A stretch of 64,000 bases of DNA from Erythrobacter sp. (GTDB lineage Bacteria > Pseudomonadota > Alphaproteobacteria > Sphingomonadales > Sphingomonadaceae), in NCBI GenBank assembly GCA_009993605.1, contig JAACTB010000013.1:62001-126000 (forward strand), read 5' to 3'. Positions 1 to 62,463 of this stretch are shown one piece after another. The notes under the pieces are model-generated. The model was not told the DNA's origin and did not search any database. It worked only from the letters and a program-made list of their open reading frames with translations. Positions within the stretch are counted from its first letter, which is position 1. Every line of letters starts with the position of its first letter. Both the position numbers and the translations under genes were made by a program.

Positions 1-483
1 GTTCAGCGTGATCGCCATGATTTCGGCGGACAGAATCAGGTCGGTGCGGATCGCCCCGCTGGTGCGCGCCTTTTCGAACGCCACCGGATCGGCGATCTCG
101 TCCTCCAGCGTCTTGCCGTGCTTTTCGCCGCCGAGCTTCTCCATCACCTTTTCGGCACCTTCGAAGGCGAGGTAACAGCCGCCCGCCATCAGGACGAAGA
201 TGATCGCGGCTGGCAATAGCCAGCTCAGCAAAAGCGCACCGGGCAACAGAATCAGCAGCTTGTTCTTCAAACTGCCCTTGGTGATGTTCCAGATGATCGG
301 CAATTCGCGCGCCGGCTTCAGCCCGGTGACATAGCCCGGCGTCACCGCCGCATCGTCGATCACCACGCCCGCCGCCTTCGATCCGGCGCGGCTGGCCGCG
401 ATACCGATATCATCCACCGATGCCGCCGCCGTGCGCGCGATCACTGAGATATCGTCGAGAAGGGCAACCAGGCCGCCGGGCAT
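1..483 (-). CDS. DUF808 family membrane protein (partial, C-terminus beyond window)
   Basis: The 161 residues visible are the N-terminal part of a DUF808/YedI-type inner-membrane protein of unknown function. The protein opens MPGGLVALLDDISVIA, the usual start of this family, followed by a segment rich in small residues and VTPGYVTGL. A hydrophobic stretch (LLILLPGALLLSWLLPAAIIFVL, in two overlapping membrane segments) comes next, then EKVMEKLGGEKHGKTLEDEI. The start is the ATG at 483. The gene runs off the left edge, so nothing can be said about its 3' end or downstream partners. It is transcribed away from the ribosomal operon on the other strand. Confidence 0.8.
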   Translation of the reverse strand, partial: MPGGLVALLDDISVIARTAAASVDDIGIAASRAGSKAAGVVIDDAAVTPGYVTGLKPARELPIIWNITKGSLKNKLLILLPGALLLSWLLPAAIIFVLMAGGCYLAFEGAEKVMEKLGGEKHGKTLEDEIADPVAFEKARTSGAIRTDLILSAEIMAITLN

Positions 484-688
484 ATCCGTACTCCGAGATG
501 AACAGGCCACCGCCCTGCCCGCACGGCCCGCGCGCGACAAGTCCGATCTTGTGTTGCAAAACGCACGGATCGCGCTATGTGCCCCGCTTCCCGGATGGCG
601 AGAGCCGACGGGAAACGAAGAAGGCCGGAGGGGCCCCGTCATCCGGACGGACCAGCCAGCGATCGGCATGAACTGAAAGGACCAAGGC
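484..688. promoter_or_regulatory. Divergent intergenic region upstream of rpsF
   Basis: About 205 bases separate the DUF808 gene from rpsF and must hold the promoter of the ribosomal operon. A clear ribosome-binding site (AAAGGA) precedes the rpsF ATG. I see no convincing -35/-10 pair or coding potential. Confidence 0.4.
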
Positions 689-56638: not shown

Positions 56639-56670
56639 GCGCTCGGCTTGATCGATGTCGGATTGGGAAA

Positions 56671-56718
56671 TGGTAGCGGAGGAGGGACTTGAACCCCCGA
56701 CACGCGGATTATGATTCC
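56671..56718 (-). other. Displaced 3' half of a CAT-anticodon tRNA gene (attachment site of an integrated element)
   Basis: Read on the minus strand, the 48 bases hold a tRNA from the anticodon stem to CCA: GGAATCATAATCC (anticodon CAT), variable loop, T-arm GGGGGTTCAAGTCCCTC, 3' acceptor strand CTCCGCT, discriminator A and CCA. The expected 5' half (AGCGGAG..., D-arm) is absent upstream; instead unrelated AT-richer DNA begins at 56719. This is what an integrase that recombines at a tRNA 3' end leaves at the far att site. Confidence 0.8.
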
Positions 56719-56757: not shown

Positions 56758-58473
56758 CTAATTAGTAGGATTAGCTGCATAGTCATCCAAGACGGCAACG
56801 ATGCGACCCAGAAGGGGCGCGAAATCGGAGAAATCAATTTCTGCTTTTTTGGCTCGAACGATCTTCTCAGCGAAGACTTGCTTACTGTATTTGTCTGGCG
56901 CCCCATGCTTTTTAGCAGGATCAAATTCTTTTCCGTTTATTTTTTCCTTGAAAAGCTCAGGCTTGAAGAAGTTCTCAATGCAGCTTGTCCCCTCGTTGCC
57001 GAGCTCGGGTGTTTTCACGAGGTAAAGATTTTCGGTCAGACGATAGAAGGGATCTGAGGATTTAAGTGATATGCCATCGATACCCAGGCCTTTCGCGGCA
57101 TTGAACACTTGTTTCCCACCAGAGTCATTATCCACCAACACGATGACAGGGTTTGGAAGAGGCCTATGCCGGAACCGCTTGAGGGAGATCCGATATTGCC
57201 GCACAAAAAACTGAAGGTCCCCATACCCGCCGCCTAGCTGTAAAACATCGTGGATCGCGGGGGAAAAGTTCAAGAACTTGACCGATTGCTTAAACTTACC
57301 ATCCTCAAAGCTACCAAGGCGTGGATGATATTCGCTCAGTCTTTCGATTGCCGCCCGAAGATATATGGAGTCTGTCTTTCCCTCAGGAACCACCAATGGC
57401 TGAGGTGCTACCACGAAATTCCGATAGAAAAGGAAACGCTGATAGAGGCTCCTAGTAGCCGTCGGCTTTTGTTTTTTTTCGGACGATGTTCGCCGATCTA
57501 TCTGATTACGGACGTGATAGATATGACCCAGCAATCCTTGTAATGGAGCAAGCTTGGTTGTCTGATCACGAACATCTGGCTCACCCGGCTCACCTCCCGA
57601 AAGGGCCGCAGGAACCATTCGGTAGTATGAGCCCGTATTGAATAGCGAGGAACACATGGCTCGAACGCTACGATAGTATTCTGAGCAGATATTAGGCTTC
57701 TCGTTGACGACCAAGCCTGTTGTCTGCTGCCTTGAACCTCTGAGCTGCATTCTGGTCTTCCCAGGGTTGATTTGAAATCCAGCTTTGGAAACCTCTGCTT
57801 CCAGGTTTGCACCAACTACCCATTCATCGCCGAGAAACGAAAGCGGCTCGGCAACCTCCGGCGGGAAATGCTTCGCGTTCGTGGAAAAAGTAATGTCATC
57901 AGCGTAACGAGAGTATGTGCATTTGTGCGCACGGGCAAAGCGCACGAGCCGGATGTCTAACAAATTGCCAATAATGTTCGAGATCACCGGCGAGCAGGGA
58001 CTACCTTGCGGCAACGCGTTCTCATGACATGCAACCTGCGCGATTAATGTAGCGATAGTTGGATCGAACTGAAATCGTCGATCATTAATAAATACACCCC
58101 GAACGCGACCAAAATTGATTGACGGGAAAAAGTTCTTCAAATCGAAATTAAGAACGAAGCGCTTTCTCTTATGGTTCTTCGCATTGGTAACGATCGACAG
58201 ATTCTTAGCGAAGCCATGTGATAGAGGTTTCCGCGGATTTCCTGCCTTATCGATGTCGGCAAGCACTGCATAAAGTAAGTCAGCCAAACGCCGCTGCAGG
58301 AGCTTGAGCTTTGGCTTCGGAGCAAAAATAAGTCTCTCTTCACCACTCCTCTTAGGTATCGTGAACGAGCGATACTTCAGCGCAGGAGGCTGGCGATAAA
58401 GTATGTAGGAAAGCCCTGCGGGAGAGTAGCCCAGAAGGGTAGCAAAATCTTCGAGCGATGTTGCTGCTTTCAA
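56758..58473 (-). CDS. Retron reverse transcriptase fused to a C-terminal TOPRIM domain
   Basis: A 571-residue retron RT. The RT part (1-~330) has the catalytic YADD (190-193, SRYADDITFS), LPQGSPCSP (154-162), Asp111 in LNFDLKNFFPSI, the retron signature NAxxH as NAKNH (97-101), and TTG (251-253) in the VTG position. The C-terminal part has TOPRIM features: VVPEGKTDSIYL (Glu364), VIVLVDNDSGG (Asp448/Asp450) and CIENFFKPEL. RT-TOPRIM fusions are type I-C retrons, as in Ec67 (Eco2), of similar size. Start is TTG 58473; CTG 58491 with AGGGGG upstream is an alternative that adds family-like LARLKAATSLEDF. Preceded by its msr-msd RNA. Confidence 0.92.
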   Translation of the reverse strand: MKAATSLEDFATLLGYSPAGLSYILYRQPPALKYRSFTIPKRSGEERLIFAPKPKLKLLQRRLADLLYAVLADIDKAGNPRKPLSHGFAKNLSIVTNAKNHKRKRFVLNFDLKNFFPSINFGRVRGVFINDRRFQFDPTIATLIAQVACHENALPQGSPCSPVISNIIGNLLDIRLVRFARAHKCTYSRYADDITFSTNAKHFPPEVAEPLSFLGDEWVVGANLEAEVSKAGFQINPGKTRMQLRGSRQQTTGLVVNEKPNICSEYYRSVRAMCSSLFNTGSYYRMVPAALSGGEPGEPDVRDQTTKLAPLQGLLGHIYHVRNQIDRRTSSEKKQKPTATRSLYQRFLFYRNFVVAPQPLVVPEGKTDSIYLRAAIERLSEYHPRLGSFEDGKFKQSVKFLNFSPAIHDVLQLGGGYGDLQFFVRQYRISLKRFRHRPLPNPVIVLVDNDSGGKQVFNAAKGLGIDGISLKSSDPFYRLTENLYLVKTPELGNEGTSCIENFFKPELFKEKINGKEFDPAKKHGAPDKYSKQVFAEKIVRAKKAEIDFSDFAPLLGRIVAVLDDYAANPTN

Positions 58474-58512
58474 TCTCGCCAGACTTGTCAGAACCCCACC
58501 CCCTAAGAAAAA

Positions 58513-58650
58513 TGGCTTACAGGCACTCCTATGCGTTCGTCACGAACGTTCTATAACGGTCAGTTACACAAAGTTTCTCAATGGGAGCATCGCTGCCCAA
58601 CATCGTTGTCGTATATCGCGATGCGCGATAATAACTCTGCCTGTAAGCCG
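58513..58650 (-). ncRNA. Retron msr-msd non-coding RNA
   Basis: Between integrase and RT genes, on the RT strand. The ends are a perfect 12-nt inverted repeat: GGCTTACAGGCA read 5' to 3' from 58649 (a1) and TGCCTGTAAGCC ending at 58514 (a2). a1 is followed by GAG, offering the priming G. Inside are hairpins ATCGCG-CAT-CGCGAT (58615-58629), CAAC-GAT-GTTG (58598-58608) and GGGCAGC-GAT-GCTCCC (58583-58598), forming the msr, and CGTTCG-TGA-CGAACG (58534-58548) in the msd. The 3' end AGGAGTGCCTG resembles, from memory, that of Ec67. Ends about 40 nt before TTG 58473. Confidence 0.88.
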
Positions 58651-58720: not shown

Positions 58721-59668
58721 TCACGCCACCAGCAATTCACGCTCCATTTCCCCCATGAGGTCCACGTCCTTCGCGGGATCGTGAAACAGGTGCCCGTAGA
58801 CATCATACGTCATCGTGATCGACGAGTGCCCGAGCATCACCTGAATGCGCTTAGGTGGCCAACCCTGTTCGATGAATAACGAGGCGGCAGCATGACGCAT
58901 AGCGTGCAGTGAGAACCTCGGAGCGCCCTCCCCGTCCACGATGCCGCACGTGAGCATGAGGGGCTTGAAGATGCGATTGTAGATGTTGGAGTGGGTCTCG
59001 ACGTTACCCACGCCATTGGGGAACACCAGGTCGAGATCACCCTTTGGGCAAGCGGGCCTCCAAGCCTTGAGCAACTTGGCAAGCCCCGGCCCCATCGGGA
59101 TCTCACGTCGCCCGGCCTTGCTCTTCGTGTTACCCATGTCACAGTAGCGATCGGCGCGCTTCCTGACCGTGATGATGCTCCGATTGAAGTCGATGGCATC
59201 CCAGGTCAGTCCGCGAAGCTCTGACATTCGCATCCCGGTCAGGAGCGCAGTCATGATGATCGGCTGGTGTCGCTCAGGTGCGTTGGCGATCAGGGCTTTG
59301 ATCTCAGCCTTGGTTGGAAACACGCGATCAGGATCATGACGCTCTGATCGCCGCAGCTTCACATCGCGCGCGACGTTGTGCTGGACCAAGCCGCGTTCCT
59401 GCGCTGCGCTGATGATCGACCGGAGCGTGGTCAGGCACTTCTTCGCCATCGCTCTGGTGCTGTCACGAAGCATGGCGTCCAGAAAGTCGCGCACATGCAC
59501 TGCGCTCAGTTCGGTGAGCAGCAGATAACCAATCTTCGGTTCAATGTGGTTCTTCACATGCCCGCGGTAGGAATGAAGCGTAGCGCGTTCGAGCTGTTCG
59601 AGTTCGCACCGAGCGATCCAGATTTTGGCTGCATCGCTGATGGTCACTGTATCTGTGGGGGTAGTCAT
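58721..59668 (-). CDS. Tyrosine-type site-specific integrase
   Basis: A 315-residue phage-type recombinase. N-terminal SAM-like core-binding domain (SDAAKIWIARCELEQLERAT; YRGHVKNHIEPKIGYLLLTE), then the catalytic domain with Arg in LLTGMRMSELRGLTW, Lys in NTKSKAGRREIP, HxxR in SLHAMRHAAASLF, His in MLGHSSITMTYDVYGH and the nucleophile Tyr in the same block (about residue 295). Complete and likely active. It lies 2 kb from the displaced tRNA half, in the same orientation as the retron. Confidence 0.95.
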   Translation of the reverse strand: MTTPTDTVTISDAAKIWIARCELEQLERATLHSYRGHVKNHIEPKIGYLLLTELSAVHVRDFLDAMLRDSTRAMAKKCLTTLRSIISAAQERGLVQHNVARDVKLRRSERHDPDRVFPTKAEIKALIANAPERHQPIIMTALLTGMRMSELRGLTWDAIDFNRSIITVRKRADRYCDMGNTKSKAGRREIPMGPGLAKLLKAWRPACPKGDLDLVFPNGVGNVETHSNIYNRIFKPLMLTCGIVDGEGAPRFSLHAMRHAAASLFIEQGWPPKRIQVMLGHSSITMTYDVYGHLFHDPAKDVDLMGEMERELLVA

Positions 59669-61590: not shown

Positions 61591-62463
61591 TCAGTTCGGT
61601 TGATGATGGCGCTCTGGCATCGCGATGCCCGAACAGTCGGGAGCAGGACCTCGATACCCCGTGTCGCTCAGGAGTTTGTCGAGCCAATCGCGGTGCCCAA
61701 GCAGCCATTCACGGTTCAAAGTATTGGGACGATTTCGGTGATGCGCTCCGTCGAGCAAATCGCTCGGTCCGCTCCGAAGCTCGCTCGCCTGCTTGAAATA
61801 AAAAGACAGGCCCATCACTGCACTTTGATCGCGGAGATTTCGTGCCCAATCTGGCATCATGAACCTCCCCAGGGGCCCTGTTTCGCATCCGACAATCACC
61901 CACTTGGGAGCTGTAAAATAGTCGAGAGTGACCGGGGCAAGAAGTGGTTCGAAATTGCCGAACGTAAATATAGGGTGCAATTTGAGAGCCGCTTCCCGCA
62001 GCAAGGGTGCATCTCGATTGTATTCGTCCTGACTCGAAATAGAGACGCCAAGAGCGACATTGTTGGGAAGACGCTCAGTGAATTGCACGACTTCGCTGAT
62101 ACGTCTCGTCAGCAAAAGCCAAACCAAATGTGGCGTCTCTTCAATCAGTCGAAATAGGTCATCACGCCAACAAGAGCTGACCTCAGGATCGAATACGTCG
62201 CAAAGGCTACCACACGAAACAAACGGTCGATTTTTGTAATAGTAAGCTCGCCAATCCCAGAGCTTTGGCTTTTCCCAATAGCTCGTGGAAGTTCGAGAAC
62301 GGGGGTTTCCGTCACCCCACTCAACCCTTCCGAAACGCAGATCTTGCTGTCTATGCGCATAGCATTCACGGCATCCATCGCTAACTTTTGTGCAGCCTAT
62401 CCAGGGGTTGAACGTGTAGTCCGCCCAATCTGTCGTTAGTTTTTCCAAAGGGTCTGCCTCCAT
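61591..62463 (-). CDS. DUF5131 (phage Gp37/Gp68) family protein
   Basis: A 290-residue protein of the phage Gp37/Gp68 family. The hallmark is the N-terminal block WADYTFNPWIGCTKVSDGC followed by RECYAHRQ, a three-cysteine cluster spaced like a radical-SAM iron-sulfur site (Cys24, Cys32, Cys35). Later blocks HLVWLLLTRRISEV, LGVSISSQDEYNRDAPLL and KWVIVGCETGPLGRFMMPDW are family-like. Function not established; members ride on phages and islands, sometimes with a three-Cys-motif partner (TcmP). No TcmP is evident here. Confidence 0.82.
   Translation of the reverse strand: MEADPLEKLTTDWADYTFNPWIGCTKVSDGCRECYAHRQQDLRFGRVEWGDGNPRSRTSTSYWEKPKLWDWRAYYYKNRPFVSCGSLCDVFDPEVSSCWRDDLFRLIEETPHLVWLLLTRRISEVVQFTERLPNNVALGVSISSQDEYNRDAPLLREAALKLHPIFTFGNFEPLLAPVTLDYFTAPKWVIVGCETGPLGRFMMPDWARNLRDQSAVMGLSFYFKQASELRSGPSDLLDGAHHRNRPNTLNREWLLGHRDWLDKLLSDTGYRGPAPDCSGIAMPERHHQPN

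Follow-up and report, generated by a model that had tools for sequence, protein, structure and literature searches.

Whether the reverse transcriptase (RT) gene on the minus strand of an Erythrobacter sp. contig (JAACTB010000013.1, positions 62,001 to 126,000; these 64,000 nucleotides are called the window below) belongs to a complete retron, and how far the mechanism worked out for the retron Eco2 (Ec67) may apply to it, are the questions that this locus raises. An earlier note, made from the letters of the DNA alone, had proposed a type I-C retron with an RT-Toprim fusion inside an integrated element, and both proposals held. We are confident that the locus is a complete type I-C (Eco2/Ec67-family) retron, and this assignment, together with its placement in an integrated element, follows from the protein family, the RT tree, an RNA covariance model, the structure comparison and the element ends. 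What the analysis shows are the parts of the system (Table 1), their homology, the conserved catalytic residues, the covarying RNA and the mobile-element setting. The family is already known, and the window copy adds one more Eco2-type member to it.

The gene holds a 571-codon open reading frame (ORF) when counted from a TTG codon (56758-58473, minus strand), and the residues of the window protein are numbered here from this TTG at 58473. All of the motifs named in the earlier note are present: the RT part carries YADD (190-193), NAKNH as the NAxxH motif (97-101) and TTG in the VTG position (251-253), and the Toprim part carries EGKTD (364-368), DND (448-450) and IENF (499-502). Across 26 aligned relatives, N97, A98, H101, Y190, D192, D193, T252, G253, E364, D448, D450 and E500 are invariant, D368 is conserved in 25, and A191, T251, N501 and F502 are variable. 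K531 is a lysine in all 26 and aligns with K546 of Eco2.

The protein scores far over the curated cut-off of the Ec67 family (NCBIfam). In PADLOC type I-C scores best, with the next retron type at less than half its score, and the nearest other fused-effector retron RTs by hidden Markov model score are types XI (RT-Protease) and XII (RT-TIR), whose C-terminal effector differs from the Toprim domain of the window protein. The RT groups with I-C retrons and not outside the retrons: in a tree of 37 rows, the window, seven proteins and 12 loci (20 I-C rows, so labelled from a full-length match, the family cut-off or the annotation of the record) all fall to the same side of a 99/98 branch. The other 17 rows include nine typed by PADLOC and eight untyped, and none of type XII. 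The nearest outsiders, L020-L022 (PADLOC type XI), adjoin the I-C rows yet lie outside the I-C branch. The tree, whose midpoint root serves display only, omitted the broken or cut genes L018, L046, L047, L048, L077 and L080; L047 is itself typed I-C by PADLOC.

Eco2 is a type I-C retron with cryo-electron microscopy structures (PDB 9lm3, 9i2f and 9s1f), and as its reference protein we took the one encoded at viral locus L127, which scores 1312.9 bits against the Eco2 chains of the PDB over 1-580. The window protein is homologous to it nearly end to end, with 35% identity, and shares the RT-Toprim fusion, a similar length and domain order and the main catalytic residues. In the RT, Y190, D192 and D193 correspond to Y199, D201 and D202 of Eco2; in the Toprim domain, E364, D368, D448, D450 and E500 correspond to E374, D378, D460, D462 and E515, so the E, D, DxD and E residues pointed out earlier have their Eco2 counterparts. 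Eco2 no longer defends when the named Toprim residues are changed to alanine, and the Toprim domain is a ribonuclease (RNase) (PMC12405507). The predicted structure of the window protein aligns with Eco2 across the whole length, with the expected Toprim part included (full-length search; VIA-align on Foldseek's list). Two residues stand apart from this comparison. A supposed absence of the Eco2 trimer-interface residue R332 from the window protein was dropped, for one alignment pairs it with Arg and another with a gap. Besides, PMC12405507 names K562 as a catalytic lysine, and the L127 Eco2 sequence has Asp at 562.

The non-coding RNA (ncRNA) directly upstream of the gene gives further signals. 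Its perfect 12-nt a1/a2 pair, already noticed by eye, is exact; when the 250 nt upstream were shuffled by mononucleotide 200 times, no shuffle gave 12 bp with arms 100-220 nt apart (maximum 10). In an alignment of 16 relatives, double changes occur in 18 of the 21 predicted pairs; the alignment took 16 of 20 loci and left out the window itself (L014), L081 and L083, which repeat L073 and L019, and L080, whose flank is occupied by an insertion. The covariance model built from these 16 relatives, without the window, recovered the RNA at 58513-58650 on the minus strand (77.7 bits, E 5.6e-15) and, with the limit set at E = 10, matched nothing else in the 64 kb. When nine loci were given to the model, it matched L074 and L077 (training rows) fully and L047 (26.8 bits) and L080 (16.6 bits) partially, with no match at L020, L021, L022, L049 and L050. 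It also matched 38 of 42 loci, namely 36 of the 37 viral loci L101-L137, L100 and L140; the viral exception, L133, has nearly no upstream DNA, its contig starting at the gene, and the other loci without a match are L138, L139 and L141. Over 39 aligned sequences, 97.1% of cells are paired, and the covariation is 0.713 against 0.297 when shuffled (0 of 500 as high) and at most 0.17 when slid, figures to be read with the facts that this alignment, being fitted to the model and including its 16 training sequences, is biased towards the structure, and that relatedness inflates covariation scores. The 39 sources were picked by eye, leaving out repeat-like viral loci, L133 and L138-L141. The ncRNA has no match in Rfam, either at the gathering threshold or at E up to 10.

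An RT of another class (group II intron, DRT or another retron type) with an incidental inverted repeat beside it is hardly conceivable in the light of these results. The RT domain does match other retron and RT models, but more weakly, and the PADLOC margin over the next type, the tree, the blind match of the RNA model and the whole-length Eco2 fold match all speak for a type I-C retron.

The layout of the ncRNA is also common to the window and Eco2, with GGCAGA at the a1 end, an msr hairpin with a 3-nt loop and GGAGTGCC at the a2 start. The Eco2 boundaries were transferred on this basis, and in L127, the Eco2 locus, they place the branch G at position 15 and give an msd template of 67 nt, equal to the published values (PMC12405507). 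The msd end points in the window, which we infer from this transfer, would give a template of 75 nt, whose core is unrelated to that of Eco2. Its predicted complementary DNA (cDNA) folds better than shuffles (z -2.65) into short hairpins with no single long one, unlike the Eco2 msd, which is described as one long hairpin (PMC12405507). At L140, the I-C ncRNA model matches 2297-2427 (63.3 bits) upstream of an RT that aligns to query residues 8-276 only, possibly a different effector arrangement sharing the I-C RNA type.

The start of the protein is where the 571-residue RT of the earlier note needs correction: the 571-codon ORF stands, and its TTG start is internal by homology. This TTG, the first start given in the ORF listing, aligns with an internal codon of relatives, mostly Leu (the exceptions being Ile in L077, Met in L103 and Phe in L130), and the relatives' proteins typically open upstream of it with M/V/L-S-x-L-x-x-L-K. 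The six codons before the TTG in the window, CTG ACA AGT CTG GCG AGA, read (L)TSLAR and are followed by LKAATS; since this stretch aligns with the N-termini of relatives, the aligned start is the CTG, giving a predicted protein of 577 residues. No in-frame ATG, GTG or TTG exists in the window from the upstream stop to the TTG at 58473. Ahead of the CTG lies what appears by eye to be a strong Shine-Dalgarno-like sequence, AGGGGGTG, and L100, a relative with 68% identity, has a G-rich run of similar kind ahead of its GTG. Start calling with ATG, GTG and TTG only therefore misplaces the N-terminus of the window protein. Among the papers listed by a literature search on CUG starts with retrons or bacteria, none concerns bacterial CUG starts, judged by titles and abstract openings.

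Several observations weigh against the assignment or against carrying Eco2 over to this locus. Folding of the single RNA is no better than shuffles (z -1.0), so thermodynamics alone gives the RNA no support, which comes from conservation and covariation. The promoter scan gave no sigma-70-like candidate above shuffles. The full-length structural match has a large root-mean-square deviation (14.9 A), so it says little of the domain arrangement. Ser513, a metal-B ligand of Eco2, is Cys498 in the window protein (Cys in 24 of 26 relatives), and His281, a thumb residue of Eco2 that stacks on the msr loop, is replaced by Ser275 at a position that varies; given these two replacements, the Eco2 complex may not apply here in its details. 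Finally, CUG is a weak initiation codon in bacteria, and the CTG could signal a damaged start.

On this last point, a sequencing error or start loss may lie behind the CTG. If a GTG, ATG or TTG start had mutated to CTG, the retron would be decaying or silent and make little or no protein. The usual start is indeed kept in all of the 53 compared loci, some near-identical, which have an upstream ATG, GTG or TTG: 16 of 16 relatives have one at codons -4 to -12 (exactly -6 in 10), as do 37 of 37 viral loci (several near-identical) in the range -3 to -14, and L100, the nearest relative with DNA, uses GTG. Decay also occurs in the I-C family, because at L100 587-1994 (genome G858, of the same family) the RT gene is broken after about residue 36-39 by an insertion of about 1.3 kb and L046 and L048 carry a stop in the gene. 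In the window, however, the frame is open through 571 codons, the catalytic residues are kept, the ncRNA is intact and the Shine-Dalgarno-like sequence stands 5 nt before the CTG. Moreover, the start predicted for P0002, a relative with 89% identity, is a Met still further downstream (565 aa), an indirect hint that a non-standard start may be found there too. We regard decay as very unlikely and a complete type I-C retron as the better account. The predicted CTG start, where Eco2 has ATG, should lower the protein level.

How such a retron would work can be outlined from Eco2, the E. coli member and the sole one for which we found the mechanism of the family worked out. Eco2 protects E. coli from a phage, as tested with mutants; it forms a self-inhibited trimer with multicopy single-stranded DNA (msDNA), phages that escape it carry mutations in denB, and the target that its Toprim domain cuts is RNA (PMC12405507). 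According to the authors, a direct test of DenB was precluded by its toxicity (PMC12405507), and a passage of PMC12956279, citing others, states that Toprim cleaves tRNA once DenB relieves the inhibition. By analogy, the window retron most probably acts as Eco2 does, as an RNase system of abortive infection. Its a1/a2 stem would close the 136-nt RNA, and the RT domain would link cDNA to the predicted branch G at 58637 and copy the msd into an msDNA of about 75 nt. The RT-Toprim protein and the msDNA would then form a self-inhibited complex; a phage nuclease attacking the msDNA (DenB being the suggested trigger of Eco2) would free the Toprim active site, and the freed Toprim would cleave RNA, so that phage growth stops. 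For the window retron, msDNA synthesis, the oligomer, the trigger and the RNase activity are all presumed from this homology.

A more specific conjecture, tentative and rather doubtful, is that the alphaproteobacterial I-C clade is a working Eco2 variant, with Cys in place of Ser513 at the Toprim metal site, without a conserved thumb His on the msr loop and with a hypervariable multi-hairpin msd. Obligatory CUG initiation in the window lineage would then keep the toxic fusion low and the template RNA in excess of the effector. The covariance model together with the Cys/Ser and His/Ser differences makes the reach of the Eco2 mechanism in distant members testable, and the locus contributes a well-delimited alphaproteobacterial retron for which the ncRNA, the predicted branch site and the ends of the element have been mapped.

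The retron sits as cargo at one end of an integrase element of about 11.6 kb in a tRNA-Met gene, which bears out the integrated element proposed earlier. A 50-bp repeat of 98% identity lies 39 bp past the retron stop, and its second copy (G000:C22:130260-130309) lies inside an intact tRNA-Met (G000:C22:130262-130338, ARAGORN) beyond the window; with the repeat at one end and the intact tRNA-Met at the other, the element extends out of the window. Ten element ORFs were scanned, of which five had no match. The named ones are, in order from the retron end, the tyrosine integrase, DUF5131, VRR-NUC, ASCH-like and GNAT-PIN. The GNAT-PIN fusion (719 aa) and the overlapping ASCH-like gene, whose protein scores below the Pfam cut-off, match the PADLOC phage-defence candidates PDC-M11A/B, and this pair could form another defence or toxin system of the element.

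This setting, at the end of an integrase element that also carries other candidate defence genes, and the 41 RT relatives found on viral contigs with an alignment query, would suit a retron that serves the mobile element (competition with other elements, stability or addiction) instead of host anti-phage defence. Against it stands the protection of E. coli from a phage by Eco2 (PMC12405507), and the two roles are compatible; we consider a purely element-serving role unlikely, and an Eco2-like defence system remains our reading.

Table 1. Features of the retron and its element (positions count from the first letter of the window unless another reference is given)
Feature	Position	Strand	Basis or remark
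RT-Toprim fusion gene (assigned to a type I-C retron)	56758..58491	-	CTG start 58491-58489, stop 56758
RT domain; Toprim domain	residues ~1-330; ~350-571		
Predicted CTG start codon	58489..58491	-	aligned with ATG/GTG/TTG starts of relatives
Shine-Dalgarno-like AGGGGGTG	58497..58504	-	5 nt before CTG; read by eye
Retron ncRNA, 136 nt from a1 to a2	58514..58649	-	covariance model match and covariation
a1 arm GGCTTACAGGCA	58638..58649	-	first helix of the model: double changes in all 12 pairs
a2 arm TGCCTGTAAGCC	58514..58525	-	exact 12-nt complement of a1
Predicted branching guanosine (Eco2 rG15 equivalent)	58637	-	homology to the Eco2 ncRNA in L127
msr stem-loop, 7-bp stem, CAU loop	58614..58630	-	second helix of the model
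Predicted msd template, 75 nt; cDNA begins TCCTATGCG	58527..58601	-	Eco2 boundaries transferred
tRNA-Met 3' fragment (left att repeat)	56669..56718	-	50 bp, 98% identical to the other copy
Tyrosine integrase of the element	58721..59668	-	Pfam Phage_integrase, E 1.4e-27
GNAT-PIN and ASCH-like pair	L086 9478-12064 = G000:C22:127477-130063		beyond the window end

Relatives of the protein are abundant: of 8000 proteins scored, 4250 match with E no higher than 1e-30. The idea of an undescribed retron is right for this copy, on which no paper was found, and not for its family, which is well described: among the matches listed, 67% identical relatives are already auto-annotated as "retron Ec67 family". 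One of these is P0005 (Sphingobium yanoikuyae per source), 67-68% identical to the window protein. L100 holds, by eye, the same protein as P0005 split in two pieces; its ncRNA is 80% identical to that of the window, with identical a1/a2 and msr stem and a different msd core. The L100 ncRNA is full, and the insertion in its gene has two ORFs that resemble transposase by eye. Within its own genome the window copy is the one match to the Ec67 family model, and matches over the cut-off occur in 6 of 396 sampled genomes of the order and, for the class, in 6 of 385, both counts including the genome of the window itself. A single-protein scan of genome contigs gave 13 distant RTs, and a first viral scan with the single protein gave no RT relatives. 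Judged by titles and abstract openings, the literature on retrons with Sphingomonas or Sphingobium holds no paper on such a retron. Passages of PMC3832669 report a retron-like RT on a Paracoccus plasmid, and PMC12548924, on new environmental retrons, has no passage on TOPRIM or type I-C.

Two minor observations concern the surroundings of the retron. The DUF5131 protein (61591-62463, minus strand) has PADLOC matches to PDC-M41B/M30B, and a match to radical SAM mobile pair protein A below the cut-off. In a comparison aimed at an empty integration site in relatives, the left-flank DNA is matched in 10 of 20 other genomes, in two over short stretches only, and the eight larger matches and their flanks are without tRNA.
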